Below are positions 34,372-38,953 of a stretch of 64,000 nt of DNA, piece by piece. The translations under genes were made by a program, and so were the position numbers. Origin of the DNA: an uncultured Brachyspira sp. GTDB taxonomy: Bacteria > Spirochaetota > Brachyspiria > Brachyspirales > Brachyspiraceae. Where the stretch lies: NCBI RefSeq assembly GCF_944388875.1, contig NZ_CALXKQ010000013.1, positions 1 through 64,000 of the forward strand, in the 5' to 3' direction. How positions within the stretch are numbered: the first letter of the stretch is position 1; each line of letters begins with the position of its first letter. The notes beneath the pieces are model-generated. The model had not been told where the DNA came from and did no database searches. It was given only the letters and a program-made list of their open reading frames with translations.

Positions 34372-34386
34372 TTATCTTAAATTATT

Positions 34387-34420
34387 AAGGTTCTTTATTA
34401 ACTTTATTATAAAGAACCTT
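34387..34420. terminator. bidirectional terminator
   Basis: AAGGTTCTTTAT (34387-34398) pairs perfectly with ATAAAGAACCTT (34409-34420) between convergent genes. Confidence 0.85.
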
Positions 34421-34425
34421 AAAAC

Positions 34426-35358
34426 TCATACTAATAAAGTTATATTAATTTTAGGATTTATATCATAATGCTGTTCTATTTTTTTTCTAGTATCCTCTAT
34501 AAGATTTATTACATCGCTTGCTTTGCATAATTGAGTATTTTCTTCTTCATGCATGCAATTATTTATAATGTAATTAGGAAATCTCTTATGCCATATCATT
34601 GAACCGTACTTCATATCAAGTCCCCCTACACGCTCCACCATCTCATAAGCCTTCACATCTTCAAAATCTTCAAATACAGGACCTATATTTGCCTCCATAG
34701 GAGCTACTGAACCTCTTATATATCTGTACCAATCTATTCTATTGTCTATACTCTCAGGATTATCATGCTCCAATTTAAATACGGCAGATAAAATTACTAT
34801 ATAATTTTTATCCTCTTCACTTATTGACATATACTCATCTCTGCTTATCTCTTTAACTGCTGCGGTTCTTTTATCTATAATAGTAACATTTTTTACTATA
34901 TTCATTAATGACATTCCAAATGATTCCAATTTTTCATAAACAGCAGACCCTACCCTGCTATTAACCAAAGCTACAAATTCTAATCCTGATAAATTTCTTA
35001 TTCTAGCCTCATGTGATAATCTTTCCAAAATGGCAGAAGCATTAGCATTTAAAATTCCGTCATCAAGAAATTCAAAATTTTCAAACTCACCTTCCAAAGA
35101 TATCATAATACCGCGATACCCCTCGTCTGATACTAAAACCCTATTAGTATCCCTTATAACAAAATAATCTATATTTTTATTATATAAAAATGAAACCAAT
35201 TCTAAAAACGATTTTATCTCTTTAACTATTATAAATAAATCAATATTTCCTCCAACACTAAAACTGCTGAATTTATTAAAAGGGTGGTTTGTATAATATT
35301 CTATGTTATTATCATTGAGAAATTTCTCAACTGCCTGATAATTTTCTTGCATACTCAT
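34426..35358 (-). CDS. murB: MurB-like protein with degenerate active-site motifs
   Basis: This protein of 310 aa follows the MurB layout and lies where murB is expected, overlapping murC by 32 nt. FNKFSSFSVGG and NLSGLEFVA are recognisable. However, the FAD-binding G-x-G-S-N is RDTNR, the P-G-T-x-G-G region is NSRVGSAV, and the catalytic serine block near GSxFKNP reads NIGPVFEDF. It may be inactive as UDP-GlcNAc-enolpyruvate reductase and keep a structural role, or be very divergent. Another murB elsewhere would be needed if it is inactive. Confidence 0.7.
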   Translation of the reverse strand: MSMQENYQAVEKFLNDNNIEYYTNHPFNKFSSFSVGGNIDLFIIVKEIKSFLELVSFLYNKNIDYFVIRDTNRVLVSDEGYRGIMISLEGEFENFEFLDDGILNANASAILERLSHEARIRNLSGLEFVALVNSRVGSAVYEKLESFGMSLMNIVKNVTIIDKRTAAVKEISRDEYMSISEEDKNYIVILSAVFKLEHDNPESIDNRIDWYRYIRGSVAPMEANIGPVFEDFEDVKAYEMVERVGGLDMKYGSMIWHKRFPNYIINNCMHEEENTQLCKASDVINLIEDTRKKIEQHYDINPKINITLLV

Positions 35359-36715
35359 TACTAATCCTTACTATATTGCCAGCCCCCAAAGTTAATATTA
35401 TATCCCCATCTTCTTTTATATCATCTAATACTGACAATACATCTTCTATATTTTTTATATATTTTACACTATTATTTTGTTTTCTTACTATATCACATAT
35501 AGTTTCCCCAGTTATTCCCTGTATAGGCGTTTCCCCAGCAGCATATATATCAGTAATTATCACATTATCAGCGTCATTAAAAGCATATTCAAAATCATTA
35601 AGTAATAACTCTGTTCTAGTATATCTATGCGGCTGAAATACTGCTATAATACGCCTATTAGGATATGCACTCCTCACAGATGATAATGTAGCCTTAATTT
35701 CCGTTGGATGATGAGCATAATCATCAAACAACGTAATCTCCTTATCATAAAGTTTATTTAATCTCCTTCCAACACCTTCAAATGTTTTCAAGCCTTCTTT
35801 TATAGTATCAATATCTATACCCAAATGAAAGGCAACTCCAATAGATGCCAATGAATTTAATATATTATGTATGCCTATTAATGGTATACTGAACTCTCCT
35901 AGAAAATCCCCATTATGATATACATTAAAGTATGTTATAGGAACTTCTATTCTAATAGAGTTCTTATCAACATAAAAATCATAATCAGATGAAAAGCCGT
36001 AAGAATAATATTTTTTATTTGTACTTTTTGATAAATCCCTTACAACATCATTCTCAAAACATAAAAAAGAGCATCCATAAAAAGGAACTTTATTTATAAA
36101 CTCCAAAAAAGCAACCCTTAAAGCCTCAACATTTCCGTAATAATCTAAATGATCATTGTCAATATTGGTAACAACATTAATAACAGGAGAAAGTCTTAAA
36201 AAACTCCCATCGCTTTCATCAGCCTCGCATACCATATATTCGCTTTTTAAATCATTGCATGAAGCATTGCTTTTTAAATTAAAATGATTTCCTCCAATAA
36301 TGCAAACTGGATTAAGTCCTGCATACATCATTATCTGACTAATTAATGATGTAGTTGTAGTTTTTCCATGAGAGCCTGATATTGCTATGCCGTATCTTAA
36401 ACGCATAAGTTCTGCCAGCATTTCGCCTCTTGATATTACAGTTATCTTTTTAGCTTTAGCTGTAAGTATTTCTTCATTAGTAGGACTTATAGCTGATGAT
36501 GTTACAACGGCAGTTACATCATCCTCTATATTGCTGGCTTTATGACCATAATATACTTTTATGCCTGAATCCTCTAAAGATTCCGTTTTTGAAGTTTTAG
36601 CTAAATCACTTCCTGTTATTGTAAAGCCTATAGCATTTAATACGCTTGCTATGGCACTCATTCCAATTCCGCCGATTCCTATGAAATGTATCTTTTCTTT
36701 TCTTCTTGTAAACAT
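35327..36715 (-). CDS. murC: UDP-N-acetylmuramate--L-alanine ligase
   Basis: This ligase of 462 aa adds L-alanine to UDP-MurNAc in murein precursor synthesis. HFIGIGGIGMSAIA lies near residue 10, the ATP loop SGSHGKTTTTSLI near 113-125, and EADESDGSFL near 170. The ATP-dependent Mur ligase C-terminal domain follows, with DDYAHHPTEIKA near 310. It is part of the ftsW-murG-murC-murB cluster. Confidence 0.96.
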   Translation of the reverse strand: MFTRRKEKIHFIGIGGIGMSAIASVLNAIGFTITGSDLAKTSKTESLEDSGIKVYYGHKASNIEDDVTAVVTSSAISPTNEEILTAKAKKITVISRGEMLAELMRLRYGIAISGSHGKTTTTSLISQIMMYAGLNPVCIIGGNHFNLKSNASCNDLKSEYMVCEADESDGSFLRLSPVINVVTNIDNDHLDYYGNVEALRVAFLEFINKVPFYGCSFLCFENDVVRDLSKSTNKKYYSYGFSSDYDFYVDKNSIRIEVPITYFNVYHNGDFLGEFSIPLIGIHNILNSLASIGVAFHLGIDIDTIKEGLKTFEGVGRRLNKLYDKEITLFDDYAHHPTEIKATLSSVRSAYPNRRIIAVFQPHRYTRTELLLNDFEYAFNDADNVIITDIYAAGETPIQGITGETICDIVRKQNNSVKYIKNIEDVLSVLDDIKEDGDIILTLGAGNIVRISNEYARKLSGS

Positions 36716-36788: not shown

Positions 36789-37862
36789 TCATTTATTATT
36801 TAAAGTATTCATTATATCATCAACTATCATAGAAACAGCCCTAGAAGACCAATTATTTTTTATTTTCTCTCTCATAGCTTTTAATCTGTCATTATTATTC
36901 AAATTATTAATTATAACATTTTCTAATTTTTCAGCAGTCAAATCAGATTCTTCTATCAAATAAGCCATATCTTTATTTAATAAATCCAAAGCATTAAAAT
37001 ACTGATGATTATCTGTTGCATAAGGAAATGGTATTAAAAGAGATGGTACATTAACCGCTAATATTTCACTAATAGAACTGCTGCCTGCTCTTGATATAAC
37101 AAAATCAGCAGCATGAAGCAATGTAGGCATATCCTTAAAATAACTGTGAACTATTACATTATCAAATTTGGCATTATTAACTTTTTCTATAATTGCATTT
37201 CCCCATTTAGGACCTGCCAGCCATACTATATGCAAATTTGCAACCTGAGCTTTTATATTCTTAATGCATTCAAAGAATAATTCATTTAATTTCAAAGCAC
37301 CCTGAGAACCGCCCATAACAACTAAAAGCTTATCATTATTTCCAAGCTTCATAACAGTTCTTGCCCCTTCTCTATTAACTACAAAAAAATCTTCTCTTAC
37401 AGGGTTTCCAAAAACTTTTCCTTTAGGCATAAACTCTAATGTTTTAGAAAAAGTTAAATAACTTTGCTTAGCATATTTATAAAACATTTTATTAACTTTT
37501 CCCGGTATAGAGTTCTGTTCGCATAAAAATATTGGTATATTTTTCCATTTAGCCATTTGAAGCATAGGAAGAGATACAAATCCCCCCATTCCTATTACAA
37601 AATCTGGTTTATGCCTATCAAGGATTTTACCAGCCTTCATTAAAGATGGTATAAACTTGAGCAAAAATAGTATATTCTTAAATATATTTCCCGGAGGATT
37701 AATATTTACTGTATTAAAGTCATAATTATGAGGAATAAGATTATAATCTTTAGCAGCAACTACTAATCTAGGGTTATGACCTTGTTTTTTAACATAATCG
37801 TATATGGAAATAGCAGGAGTAATATGACCTGCTGTTCCGCCTCCGCATAAAATTATATTCAT
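36789..37862 (-). CDS. murG: lipid II synthase, N-acetylglucosaminyl transferase
   Basis: This protein of 357 aa transfers GlcNAc onto lipid I at the cytoplasmic membrane. The N-terminal glycine loop GGTAGHITPAI and GMGGFVSLPML are present, followed by GGSQGALKLNE and the UDP-GlcNAc motif SRAGSSSISEI. Its start overlaps the ftsW stop by 4 nt. Confidence 0.96.
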   Translation of the reverse strand: MNIILCGGGTAGHITPAISIYDYVKKQGHNPRLVVAAKDYNLIPHNYDFNTVNINPPGNIFKNILFLLKFIPSLMKAGKILDRHKPDFVIGMGGFVSLPMLQMAKWKNIPIFLCEQNSIPGKVNKMFYKYAKQSYLTFSKTLEFMPKGKVFGNPVREDFFVVNREGARTVMKLGNNDKLLVVMGGSQGALKLNELFFECIKNIKAQVANLHIVWLAGPKWGNAIIEKVNNAKFDNVIVHSYFKDMPTLLHAADFVISRAGSSSISEILAVNVPSLLIPFPYATDNHQYFNALDLLNKDMAYLIEESDLTAEKLENVIINNLNNNDRLKAMREKIKNNWSSRAVSMIVDDIMNTLNNK

Positions 37863-38953
37863 TGTTCTCTCCTTTGAGTTATTTTTAATAATATAGCAAT
37901 CATAATCATATTAATAACCAAAGCATTTCTTCCATAGCTTATTATAGGAAGAGGCATGCCTGTAGTTGGAATCATAAGTGTAGCAACCATTATATTCAAA
38001 TACGCCTGCACACTAATAAACATTGTTATTGCAAATGAAAGATTCTTCAAAAACAGATCATTAGTCCGCGATGATATTATAAATCCCCTAATAGTAAAAG
38101 ATAAAAATAATAGTAATATTATCAAATTACCTATTAAGCCATATCTCTGAGATACAGAAGCATATATAAAATCTGTTAATGCTGCAGGCAAATGAGTACT
38201 TACATCTCTTATCTCTTCATCTGGTATGCCAGTAATTCCTCCATAATTAAATGCCAGCTTAGCCCTTCTAATTTGATAAATATCTTCTTCTGACTGACTA
38301 TTAGGATCAAGATAAGAATTAACTCTGCTTCTCATATAAGGAACATTAAATATAAATATAGCAAAAACTACCATTAAGAATAATGCGGAAAGAAGTAATG
38401 ATCTAAAAGGTATGCCTCCGTAAAAAAATACAGAAAAACCAACCATAGCGAATAAAAGTGCCGTTCCTGAATCAGGCTCTATCAATATTAAACCAGAAAT
38501 TGCACATAAAACGGCAAAGGGAGGTGCTAATCCCTTTTTTATATCAAATAATTTCTCGCCTTTTTTACTTAATACGCTTGCTAAATATATTGAAAATGTT
38601 ATCTTTGCTATCTCAGAAGGCTGTATAGTAATGCCAGGTGCTATTAGAAGCCATCTTTTTGCAAGACTTCCAGCAACAGTAATACCAAAAAAATAAACCC
38701 ATACAAGTAAAATAAGTGTTAATAATAATAATATAGGAACCATCTTATCTATAATCTCAAAAAAATCAGGAACTGCAAGTACAATAATAGTTCCTATCAA
38801 CATAATAGATAATAATTTCAAATGATTATTAAAATAACTTCCATTAGGTTCATGTATAGTTTGTGCTCCATATATAGCAACTAGCCCTGCTATTAATAAA
38901 GCTATATATATAATCAATAAATATCTATCTGGAATTAATTTTCTTCTTACCAT
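37859..38953 (-). CDS. ftsW: SEDS-family lipid II polymerase/flippase FtsW
   Basis: This protein of 364 aa has ten or so membrane segments. KRWLLIAPGITIQPSEIAK is the typical SEDS motif near residues 97-115. The usual SYGGSS end motif reads PIISYGRNAL, lacking one glycine. Adjacency to murG and murC favours FtsW over RodA. Confidence 0.88.
   Translation of the reverse strand: MVRRKLIPDRYLLIIYIALLIAGLVAIYGAQTIHEPNGSYFNNHLKLLSIMLIGTIIVLAVPDFFEIIDKMVPILLLLTLILLVWVYFFGITVAGSLAKRWLLIAPGITIQPSEIAKITFSIYLASVLSKKGEKLFDIKKGLAPPFAVLCAISGLILIEPDSGTALLFAMVGFSVFFYGGIPFRSLLLSALFLMVVFAIFIFNVPYMRSRVNSYLDPNSQSEEDIYQIRRAKLAFNYGGITGIPDEEIRDVSTHLPAALTDFIYASVSQRYGLIGNLIILLLFLSFTIRGFIISSRTNDLFLKNLSFAITMFISVQAYLNIMVATLMIPTTGMPLPIISYGRNALVINMIMIAILLKITQRREQ

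Follow-up and report, generated by a model that had tools for sequence, protein, structure and literature searches.

MurB is an essential enzyme and a drug target that is annotated by homology, and in dcw-type clusters its gene follows murC. The window analyzed here, a stretch of 64,000 nucleotides from the genome of an uncultured Brachyspira sp. (G000), carries a murB-like gene in this same position whose product has lost the usual catalytic motifs. This raises the question of whether the protein is still a reductase and, if it is not, why its gene has been kept behind murC. We named this altered in-cluster copy MurB' (gene murB'). The locus contains the following features:

37859..38953, minus strand: ftsW/rodA-type gene, the first of an ftsW-murG-murC-murB' block
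36789..37862, minus strand: murG, with glycosyltransferase 28 N and C domains
35327..36715, minus strand: murC, with three Mur ligase domains over their cut-offs
35327..35358, minus strand: overlap of murC and murB', 32 nt (26 nt when counted from the second ATG)
34426..35358, minus strand: murB', very probably encoding a MurB-derived pseudoenzyme; intact ORF of 310 aa with an ATG start
35350-35352, minus strand: second ATG of murB' (residue 3), probably the conserved start
34378..34428, minus strand: stable hairpin starting with the murB' stop codon, a possible terminator (-16.9 kcal/mol, z -5.1)

The second ATG was found in all 25 copies from Brachyspira (23) and the sister genus g2 (2), and it is the sole ATG near the murB' start in five genomes (G011, G013, G017, G026, and G027). 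The nearest named match found for the window protein, from B. alvinipulli, shares 90% protein identity with it. An assembly or frameshift artefact was ruled out, as the frame has no internal stop in any of the 28 murB' copies identified; its occurrence without internal stops in 28 of 31 genomes of the class likewise excludes chance or a sequencing error.

The window protein is a homolog of MurB over its whole length, with scores (NF010480, 123 bits; TIGR00179, 79.2 bits) that lie far under the curated cut-offs of 259 and 144.5 bits, respectively. Pfam matched MurB_C alone, at 23.3 bits and below the cut-off of 27, and did not recognize the FAD-binding domain in this protein. A profile built from 14 MurB' sequences covers solved MurBs almost end to end (4PYT, 8.9e-39; 1HSK, 1.4e-36). 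MurB' therefore resembles type II MurB, the UDP-N-acetylenolpyruvoylglucosamine reductase represented by S. aureus 1HSK and by 4PYT, in its full-length sequence homology, but it differs in that the FAD loop, the P-G-T-x-G-G motif, and the Ser, Glu, His, and Asn of the active site are replaced and the NCBIfam and Pfam cut-offs are not reached. An AlphaFold2 model of MurB', calculated from an alignment of three near-identical rows, gave no reliable fold (mean pLDDT of 46, pTM of 0.43). Two scans of viral_contigs for further relatives found none.

Residue positions were assigned with E. coli K-12 MurB as the ruler. Arg159, Glu325, Asn233, residue 288 (printed as Glu), Tyr190, and Lys217 are given as substrate contacts of MurB (PMC12844806); the same source names Ser229 as the general acid in the title of a reference, and a figure legend elsewhere calls the G-x-G motif important for FAD binding (PMC3689657). 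Arg159, Asn233, residue 288, and Glu325 were among the positions mapped here. In the window protein, the corresponding sites read as follows:

35140..35154, minus strand: residues 69-73, RDTNR, replacing the FAD-binding G-x-G-S-N loop
34945..34962, minus strand: residues 133-138, NSRVGS, replacing P-G-T-x-G-G
34699..34722, minus strand: residues 213-220, Y-I-R-G-S-V-A-P
34678..34680, minus strand: residue 227, Pro where E. coli has the general-acid Ser229 (the Ser of A-G-S-x-F)
34666..34668, minus strand: residue 231, Asp, at the E. coli Asn233 position (two residues past the Phe of A-G-S-x-F)
34567..34593, minus strand: residues 256-264, WHKRFPNYI, clade-specific and conserved, replacing the canonical V-S-x-x-H-a-N-F-I
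34444..34446, minus strand: residue 305, Asn where E. coli has the catalytic Glu325 (the C-terminal Glu)

In addition, Phe occupies the position of E. coli residue 288, that is, the His of S-x-x-H-a-N-F; E. coli K-12 has Gln here, and each of the 47 other spirochaete MurBs in the tally has His. The first-pass annotation had described an intact gene overlapping murC by 32 nt, with the FAD loop, P-G-T-x-G-G, and the serine block all replaced, and each of these points was confirmed for the window protein (RDTNR, NSRVGS, and Pro227).

The active-site losses are common to every copy of MurB'. The general-acid Ser is absent from all 28 (25 Pro, 3 Leu), as is the catalytic Glu (25 Asn, 1 Lys, 1 Arg, 1 Ile), and both the His/Gln position (27 Phe, 1 Tyr) and the Asn233 position (27 Asp, 1 Gln) are changed throughout. 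All 28 retain the counterpart of E. coli Arg214; near the Arg159 position, the alignment of MurB' is uncertain owing to a local deletion. Tyr213, Arg215, Gly216, and Pro220 are invariant across the 14 MurB' rows of the alignment, Arg215 being common to MurB. The FAD-binding motifs show a graded pattern. Neither the G-x-G loop nor P-G-T-x-G-G is intact in any of the 23 Brachyspira proteins, all of which have lost the second Gly of the former and the first Pro-Gly of the latter; three copies from sister genera (G026-G028) are intermediate in this loss; and the two copies from family f2 (G029 and G030), which also lack Ser and Glu as well as the second Gly of the FAD loop, nevertheless retain PGTVGG and the FAD-loop Asn and score higher (127.9 bits for G030). 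Judged from these residues, MurB' is very probably a conserved pseudoenzyme that is inactive as a MurB, and we infer that it has no reductase activity.

Chemistry in this genome could be provided by another protein. A second TIGR00179 match in G000, at C10:51477-52310 (locus L001:1450-2361), scores 241.7 bits, over the cut-off, and is encoded apart from the murC cluster. Its product contains GGGSN, PGSIGG, YPSAGSTF, HANFIVN, and AEVR, so that a canonical counterpart of MurB', of the active type by its motifs, is present in the genome. Across the 28 canonical copies found in the order, Glu, His, and Asn are conserved in all and Ser in 26; the other two (G026 and G027) have Cys at the Ser229 position, as does the MurB of G054. 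Lys stands at the position of E. coli Arg159 in 28/28 canonical copies and in 8 of 19 aligned MurBs of other spirochaetes. The canonical MurB of G000 belongs to the same family and genome as MurB' but to a different lineage, and it keeps its motifs except for this Lys. A genome with no second murB was one of the outcomes that the first-pass annotation had set against its own reading, and it did not occur. Of the two alternatives offered there, a changed enzyme or a pseudoenzyme kept while a second MurB does the chemistry, the latter is largely supported by the presence of this canonical murB, by the loss of Ser and Glu in 28/28 copies, and by purifying selection (see below), and a changed active enzyme appears less likely.

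MurB' was detected in 23 of the 26 Brachyspira genomes examined and, over the class, in 28 of 31, the additional five being the three genomes of two sister genera and the two of family f2; in 26 of the 31, it occurs together with a canonical MurB. In each of the 28 genomes with MurB', its gene immediately follows and overlaps murC, by 26 nt (or 32) in 25 copies and by 20 nt in G028, the starts of the f2 copies being uncertain. Two Brachyspira genomes that are 99% complete (G001 and G019) have kept ftsW-murG-murC with no MurB' behind murC. No remnant was found in their murC regions (tblastn, best E 0.10), and in profile searches of both whole genomes, only the canonical copy was significant, with one further match of 13.4 bits in G001. 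As murC is present in both, MurB' is dispensable at least there. The two absences may go back to one loss or to two: in the MurC tree, G001 and G019 as a single clade were not rejected (p 0.387); the canonical MurB tree separates them. G003 (88% complete) also showed no MurB', which may be due to the break of murC at a contig end. Some of the genomes compared are draft assemblies. In G021 and G023 (85-86% complete), MurB' alone was found, and the missing canonical murB may reflect incompleteness.

Where MurB' came from was addressed with two trees, the first using 13 of the 28 MurB' and 10 of the 28 canonical copies and the second using 8 of the 16 genomes of genus g120 (see below), with 8 of its 44 rows dropped. 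In the first tree, the MurB' rows form one clade (100/100) and the canonical rows another (95/90); set against each other, both are supported at 100/100. A recent duplication of the order's canonical murB was rejected, as was the single clade that it implies (p-AU 1.7e-6). In both trees, MurB' lies outside the canonical clade, together with G032 and further MurBs from spirochaetes (81/88 in the first and 98/95 in the second). G032, which belongs to another family, carries an ftsW-murG-murC-murB block (L140) with the same gene order as in the window but with the examined catalytic motifs of its MurB intact; its second MurB (L141) lies elsewhere and groups with E. coli MurB. A clade of MurB' and the in-cluster MurB of G032 was not rejected (p-AU 0.453), and neither tree places the two as sisters. 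From this placement, MurB' most likely represents the former MurB of the cluster, whose chemistry was taken over by a second MurB encoded elsewhere. Since the f2 copies keep P-G-T-x-G-G without Ser and Glu, the FAD site apparently eroded only after catalysis had been lost; most simply, the loss of catalysis took place on the stem of the order and was followed by that of FAD binding.

These observations can be combined into one explanation, to which we give a probability of about 0.5, in which MurB' is a pseudoenzyme derived from the old cluster MurB that serves as a non-catalytic partner in the MurC step. Its ancestor would have been an in-cluster MurB of the ftsW-murG-murC-murB type. The general-acid Ser, the Glu, and the His and Asn substrate contacts would already have been missing in the last ancestor shared by the order, and the FAD-binding motifs would have been lost afterwards in the Brachyspira family, with UDP-MurNAc being made by the canonical MurB, which is unlinked and belongs to another lineage. 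MurB' would be produced by translation coupled to that of MurC, and it may bind MurC (or Mur enzymes of the cytoplasm), a UDP-sugar within a remodeled C-terminal pocket, or both, acting as a scaffold or regulator of the step from UDP-MurNAc to UDP-MurNAc-L-Ala.

The functional part of this explanation, a role for MurB' with MurC or in a Mur complex, stands at about even odds. It is supported by the adjacency of the two genes, their conserved overlap, and published associations of MurB with MurC: MurB-MurC fusions, and the co-localization of MurB, MurC, and others, are on record (PMC6420597), and in Verrucomicrobium spinosum MurB and MurC sequences are physically coupled in one fusion enzyme (PMC4803751), whereas MurB' is a separate protein that is inactive by sequence. 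Counting against a MurC complex as the sole reason for its retention are its absence from G001 and G019, which have murC, and the occurrence of an unrelated degenerate MurB in genus g120, where no convincing MurC was found in the genomes searched.

The spirochaete genus g120 (family f49) encodes one weak MurB match in each of its 16 genomes (E 1.9e-16 to 9.4e-35) and no other. We read the sequences of eight of these genomes (G345 L187, G301 L188, G339 L189, G248 L190, G366 L192, G225 L193, G234 L197, and G269 L198). In them, Ser229 is replaced by Gln, Glu, or Leu, Glu325 by Ser or Thr, Asn51 by His, and the residue at the Arg159 position by Gln or Glu; the His of the active site is missing as well. 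Five f49 relatives of g120 retain Ser or Cys together with Glu. MurA was over its cut-off in none of the 16 genomes, the best match having 72.4 versus 392.7 bits (we take this match to be perhaps a member of the related AroA family), as against 434-490 bits in five relatives. Among the eight g120 genomes searched for MurC, six gave no match and two gave 25.7 and 31.2 bits; the best matches of five relatives (153-306 bits) are themselves under the cut-off of 335, which indicates that the MurC of family f49 is divergent.

The g120 protein is like MurB' in losing Ser229, Glu325, the His, and the residue at the Arg159 position, but its origin is independent. The second tree places the g120 proteins as a clade next to the canonical MurB of G249 (99/97), and a common origin of the two degenerate forms as one clade was rejected (p 1.2e-5); the loss thus happened at least twice. 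A MurB-derived protein can apparently outlive murein synthesis in g120, and, because it persists where MurA and MurC were not found, a pseudo-MurB need not serve MurC. It is conceivable, if at somewhat less than even odds, that spirochaetes have on at least two occasions turned the MurB fold into a conserved protein without catalysis, once beside murC in the Brachyspira order and once in g120, and that MurB has, or readily gains, a second function independent of UDP-MurNAc synthesis.

It could accordingly be asked whether MurB' is a murein-independent binder of a ligand (a nucleotide, a sugar nucleotide, or another small molecule), its adjacency to murC being inherited from the ancestral cluster. 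The independent loss of Ser and Glu in g120, whose degenerate MurB is kept though MurA and MurC were not found, speaks for such a protein, as does the fact that its absence is tolerated in G001 and G019. Conserved residues peculiar to MurB' are also found in the former substrate pocket. When 13 MurB' sequences were compared with 29 type II MurBs at 90% conservation, 46 columns were conserved solely in MurB' and 20 solely in MurB; a further 9 had the same conserved residue in the two groups, and 2 had different ones. The MurB'-only residues include Trp256, Lys258, Pro261, and Tyr263, which align around the position of the missing His, and Tyr213, Gly216, and Pro220, which align close to that of the missing Ser. 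It should be noted that, in eight matched genomes, MurB' has 38 invariant columns (29 of its own and 9 shared with other MurBs) and the canonical MurB has 66 (45 of its own and 21 shared). As the canonical protein has more invariant columns of its own, these counts show constraint rather than a new function. Retention beside murC, with an overlap, in 28/28 genomes suggests a link to murein, and the degeneration differs between the two proteins: the FAD-binding domain was recognized in both of the g120 proteins that were scanned (51.0 and 60.6 bits), the reverse of the situation in the window protein. We consider a murein-independent binder doubtful.

Improbable, in our view, is that MurB' is a changed but active oxidoreductase that binds FAD differently and has built a new active site from the substituted residues. 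Candidates for such a site exist among the conserved pocket residues (the Asp at the Asn position, the Trp, Lys, and Phe in the His motif, and Tyr-x-Arg-Gly), the Arg214 equivalent is kept in every copy, and both f2 proteins have preserved P-G-T-x-G-G together with the FAD-loop Asn. These points have to be set against the failure of Pfam to find an FAD-binding domain in the window protein, the loss of the second Gly of G-x-G and of the first Pro-Gly of P-G-T-x-G-G from all Brachyspira members, and a general-acid position occupied by Pro or Leu in 28/28.

A partnership with the canonical MurB instead of MurC, with MurB' as an activating or stabilizing pseudo-subunit, has precedents in the trypanosome AdoMetDC prozyme (PMC5201418) and DHS (PMC3663545), in which a dead paralog activates its active partner. 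As with MurB', a dead copy occurs there beside an active one; a functional effect has been reported for those proteins, which belong to other enzyme families. A hint in this direction came from identities to G000, taken from the best local alignment only. In G001 and G019, the canonical MurB has diverged further from its G000 counterpart than MurC, with identities of 75.0 vs 80.3% and 68.9 vs 72.7%; this is the opposite of the G011 group (80.7-83.1 vs 79.3-80.8%). However, the same excess is seen in G026-G029, and slightly in G007, G022, and G025, which makes the hint very weak, as these genomes do have MurB'; moreover, the canonical MurB is encoded elsewhere in the genome. We regard this partnership as very improbable.

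Selection on the genes was estimated from 23 Brachyspira MurB', 21 canonical MurB, and 23 murC frames, which were trimmed and from which the murC/murB' overlap was omitted; the medians leave out pairs with dS outside 0.05-1. For close pairs (dS 0.05-0.5), the median dN/dS of MurB' was 0.056 (38 pairs), between those of murC (0.045, 53 pairs) and the canonical MurB (0.068, 41 pairs). With dS up to 1, the medians were 0.133 for MurB' (162/253 pairs), 0.091 for the canonical MurB (137/210), and 0.094 for murC (241/253). Untrimmed frames, which ran from the preceding stop (up to ~30 extra codons in some canonical copies) and did not include G023, gave 0.141, 0.119, and 0.106, respectively. By these ratios, MurB' is under purifying selection; it evolves faster than the canonical MurB and murC over longer distances, yet clearly under constraint. 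That MurB' is a decaying relic heading for loss, as its absence from G001 and G019 and its faster divergence over longer distances might suggest, is already disfavored and the least credible reading, given a frame that is open in 28/28 copies, the low close-pair dN/dS, and retention across two families.

In published work, LucY is a MurB homolog that was studied for its FAD fluorescence and in which the contacts to FAD are described as conserved (PMC4408115), and Corynebacterium has a second murB gene on record, murB2, which is called essential (PMC9671496). In the genome paper on B. hyodysenteriae, murB is mentioned once, as one of the genes identified, with no second copy in that passage (PMC2650404). 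Among the literature matches listed, from which subscription journals were mostly absent, none described a MurB pseudoenzyme or two murB genes in Brachyspira. This genus includes the agent of swine dysentery, and a conserved, probably dead MurB copy in its murein cluster could be mistaken for a drug target. Brachyspira with and without MurB' would offer a natural experiment on Mur complexes with non-catalytic partners, and a MurB-derived protein kept where MurA and MurC were not found would point to an undescribed function of the fold.

Several other observations were made in the course of these searches. Weak TIGR00179 scores elsewhere in the phylum were considered as signs of more pseudo-MurBs; this failed in the seven other genomes checked and held for g120 only. 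In four of the seven (G035, G047, G062, and G327), the low score came from one MurB match split in two, and the other three (G086, G109, and G180) encode divergent MurBs with the usual motifs. A MurC-MurB fusion in G114 (an 849-aa frame) was ruled out, as MurB matches alone. In g120, cysS lies near the MurB gene of G234. Three other members of family f49 (G239, G317, and G391), with genomes of 1.2-1.4 Mb that are 95-97% complete, show neither a MurB match at E 1e-5 nor a MurA above its cut-off, and the MurC search gave no match in G239 and G317; by their gene content, these are candidate wall-less spirochaetes. Finally, G125 encodes two sister MurB copies (L142 and L143), both with the usual motifs.
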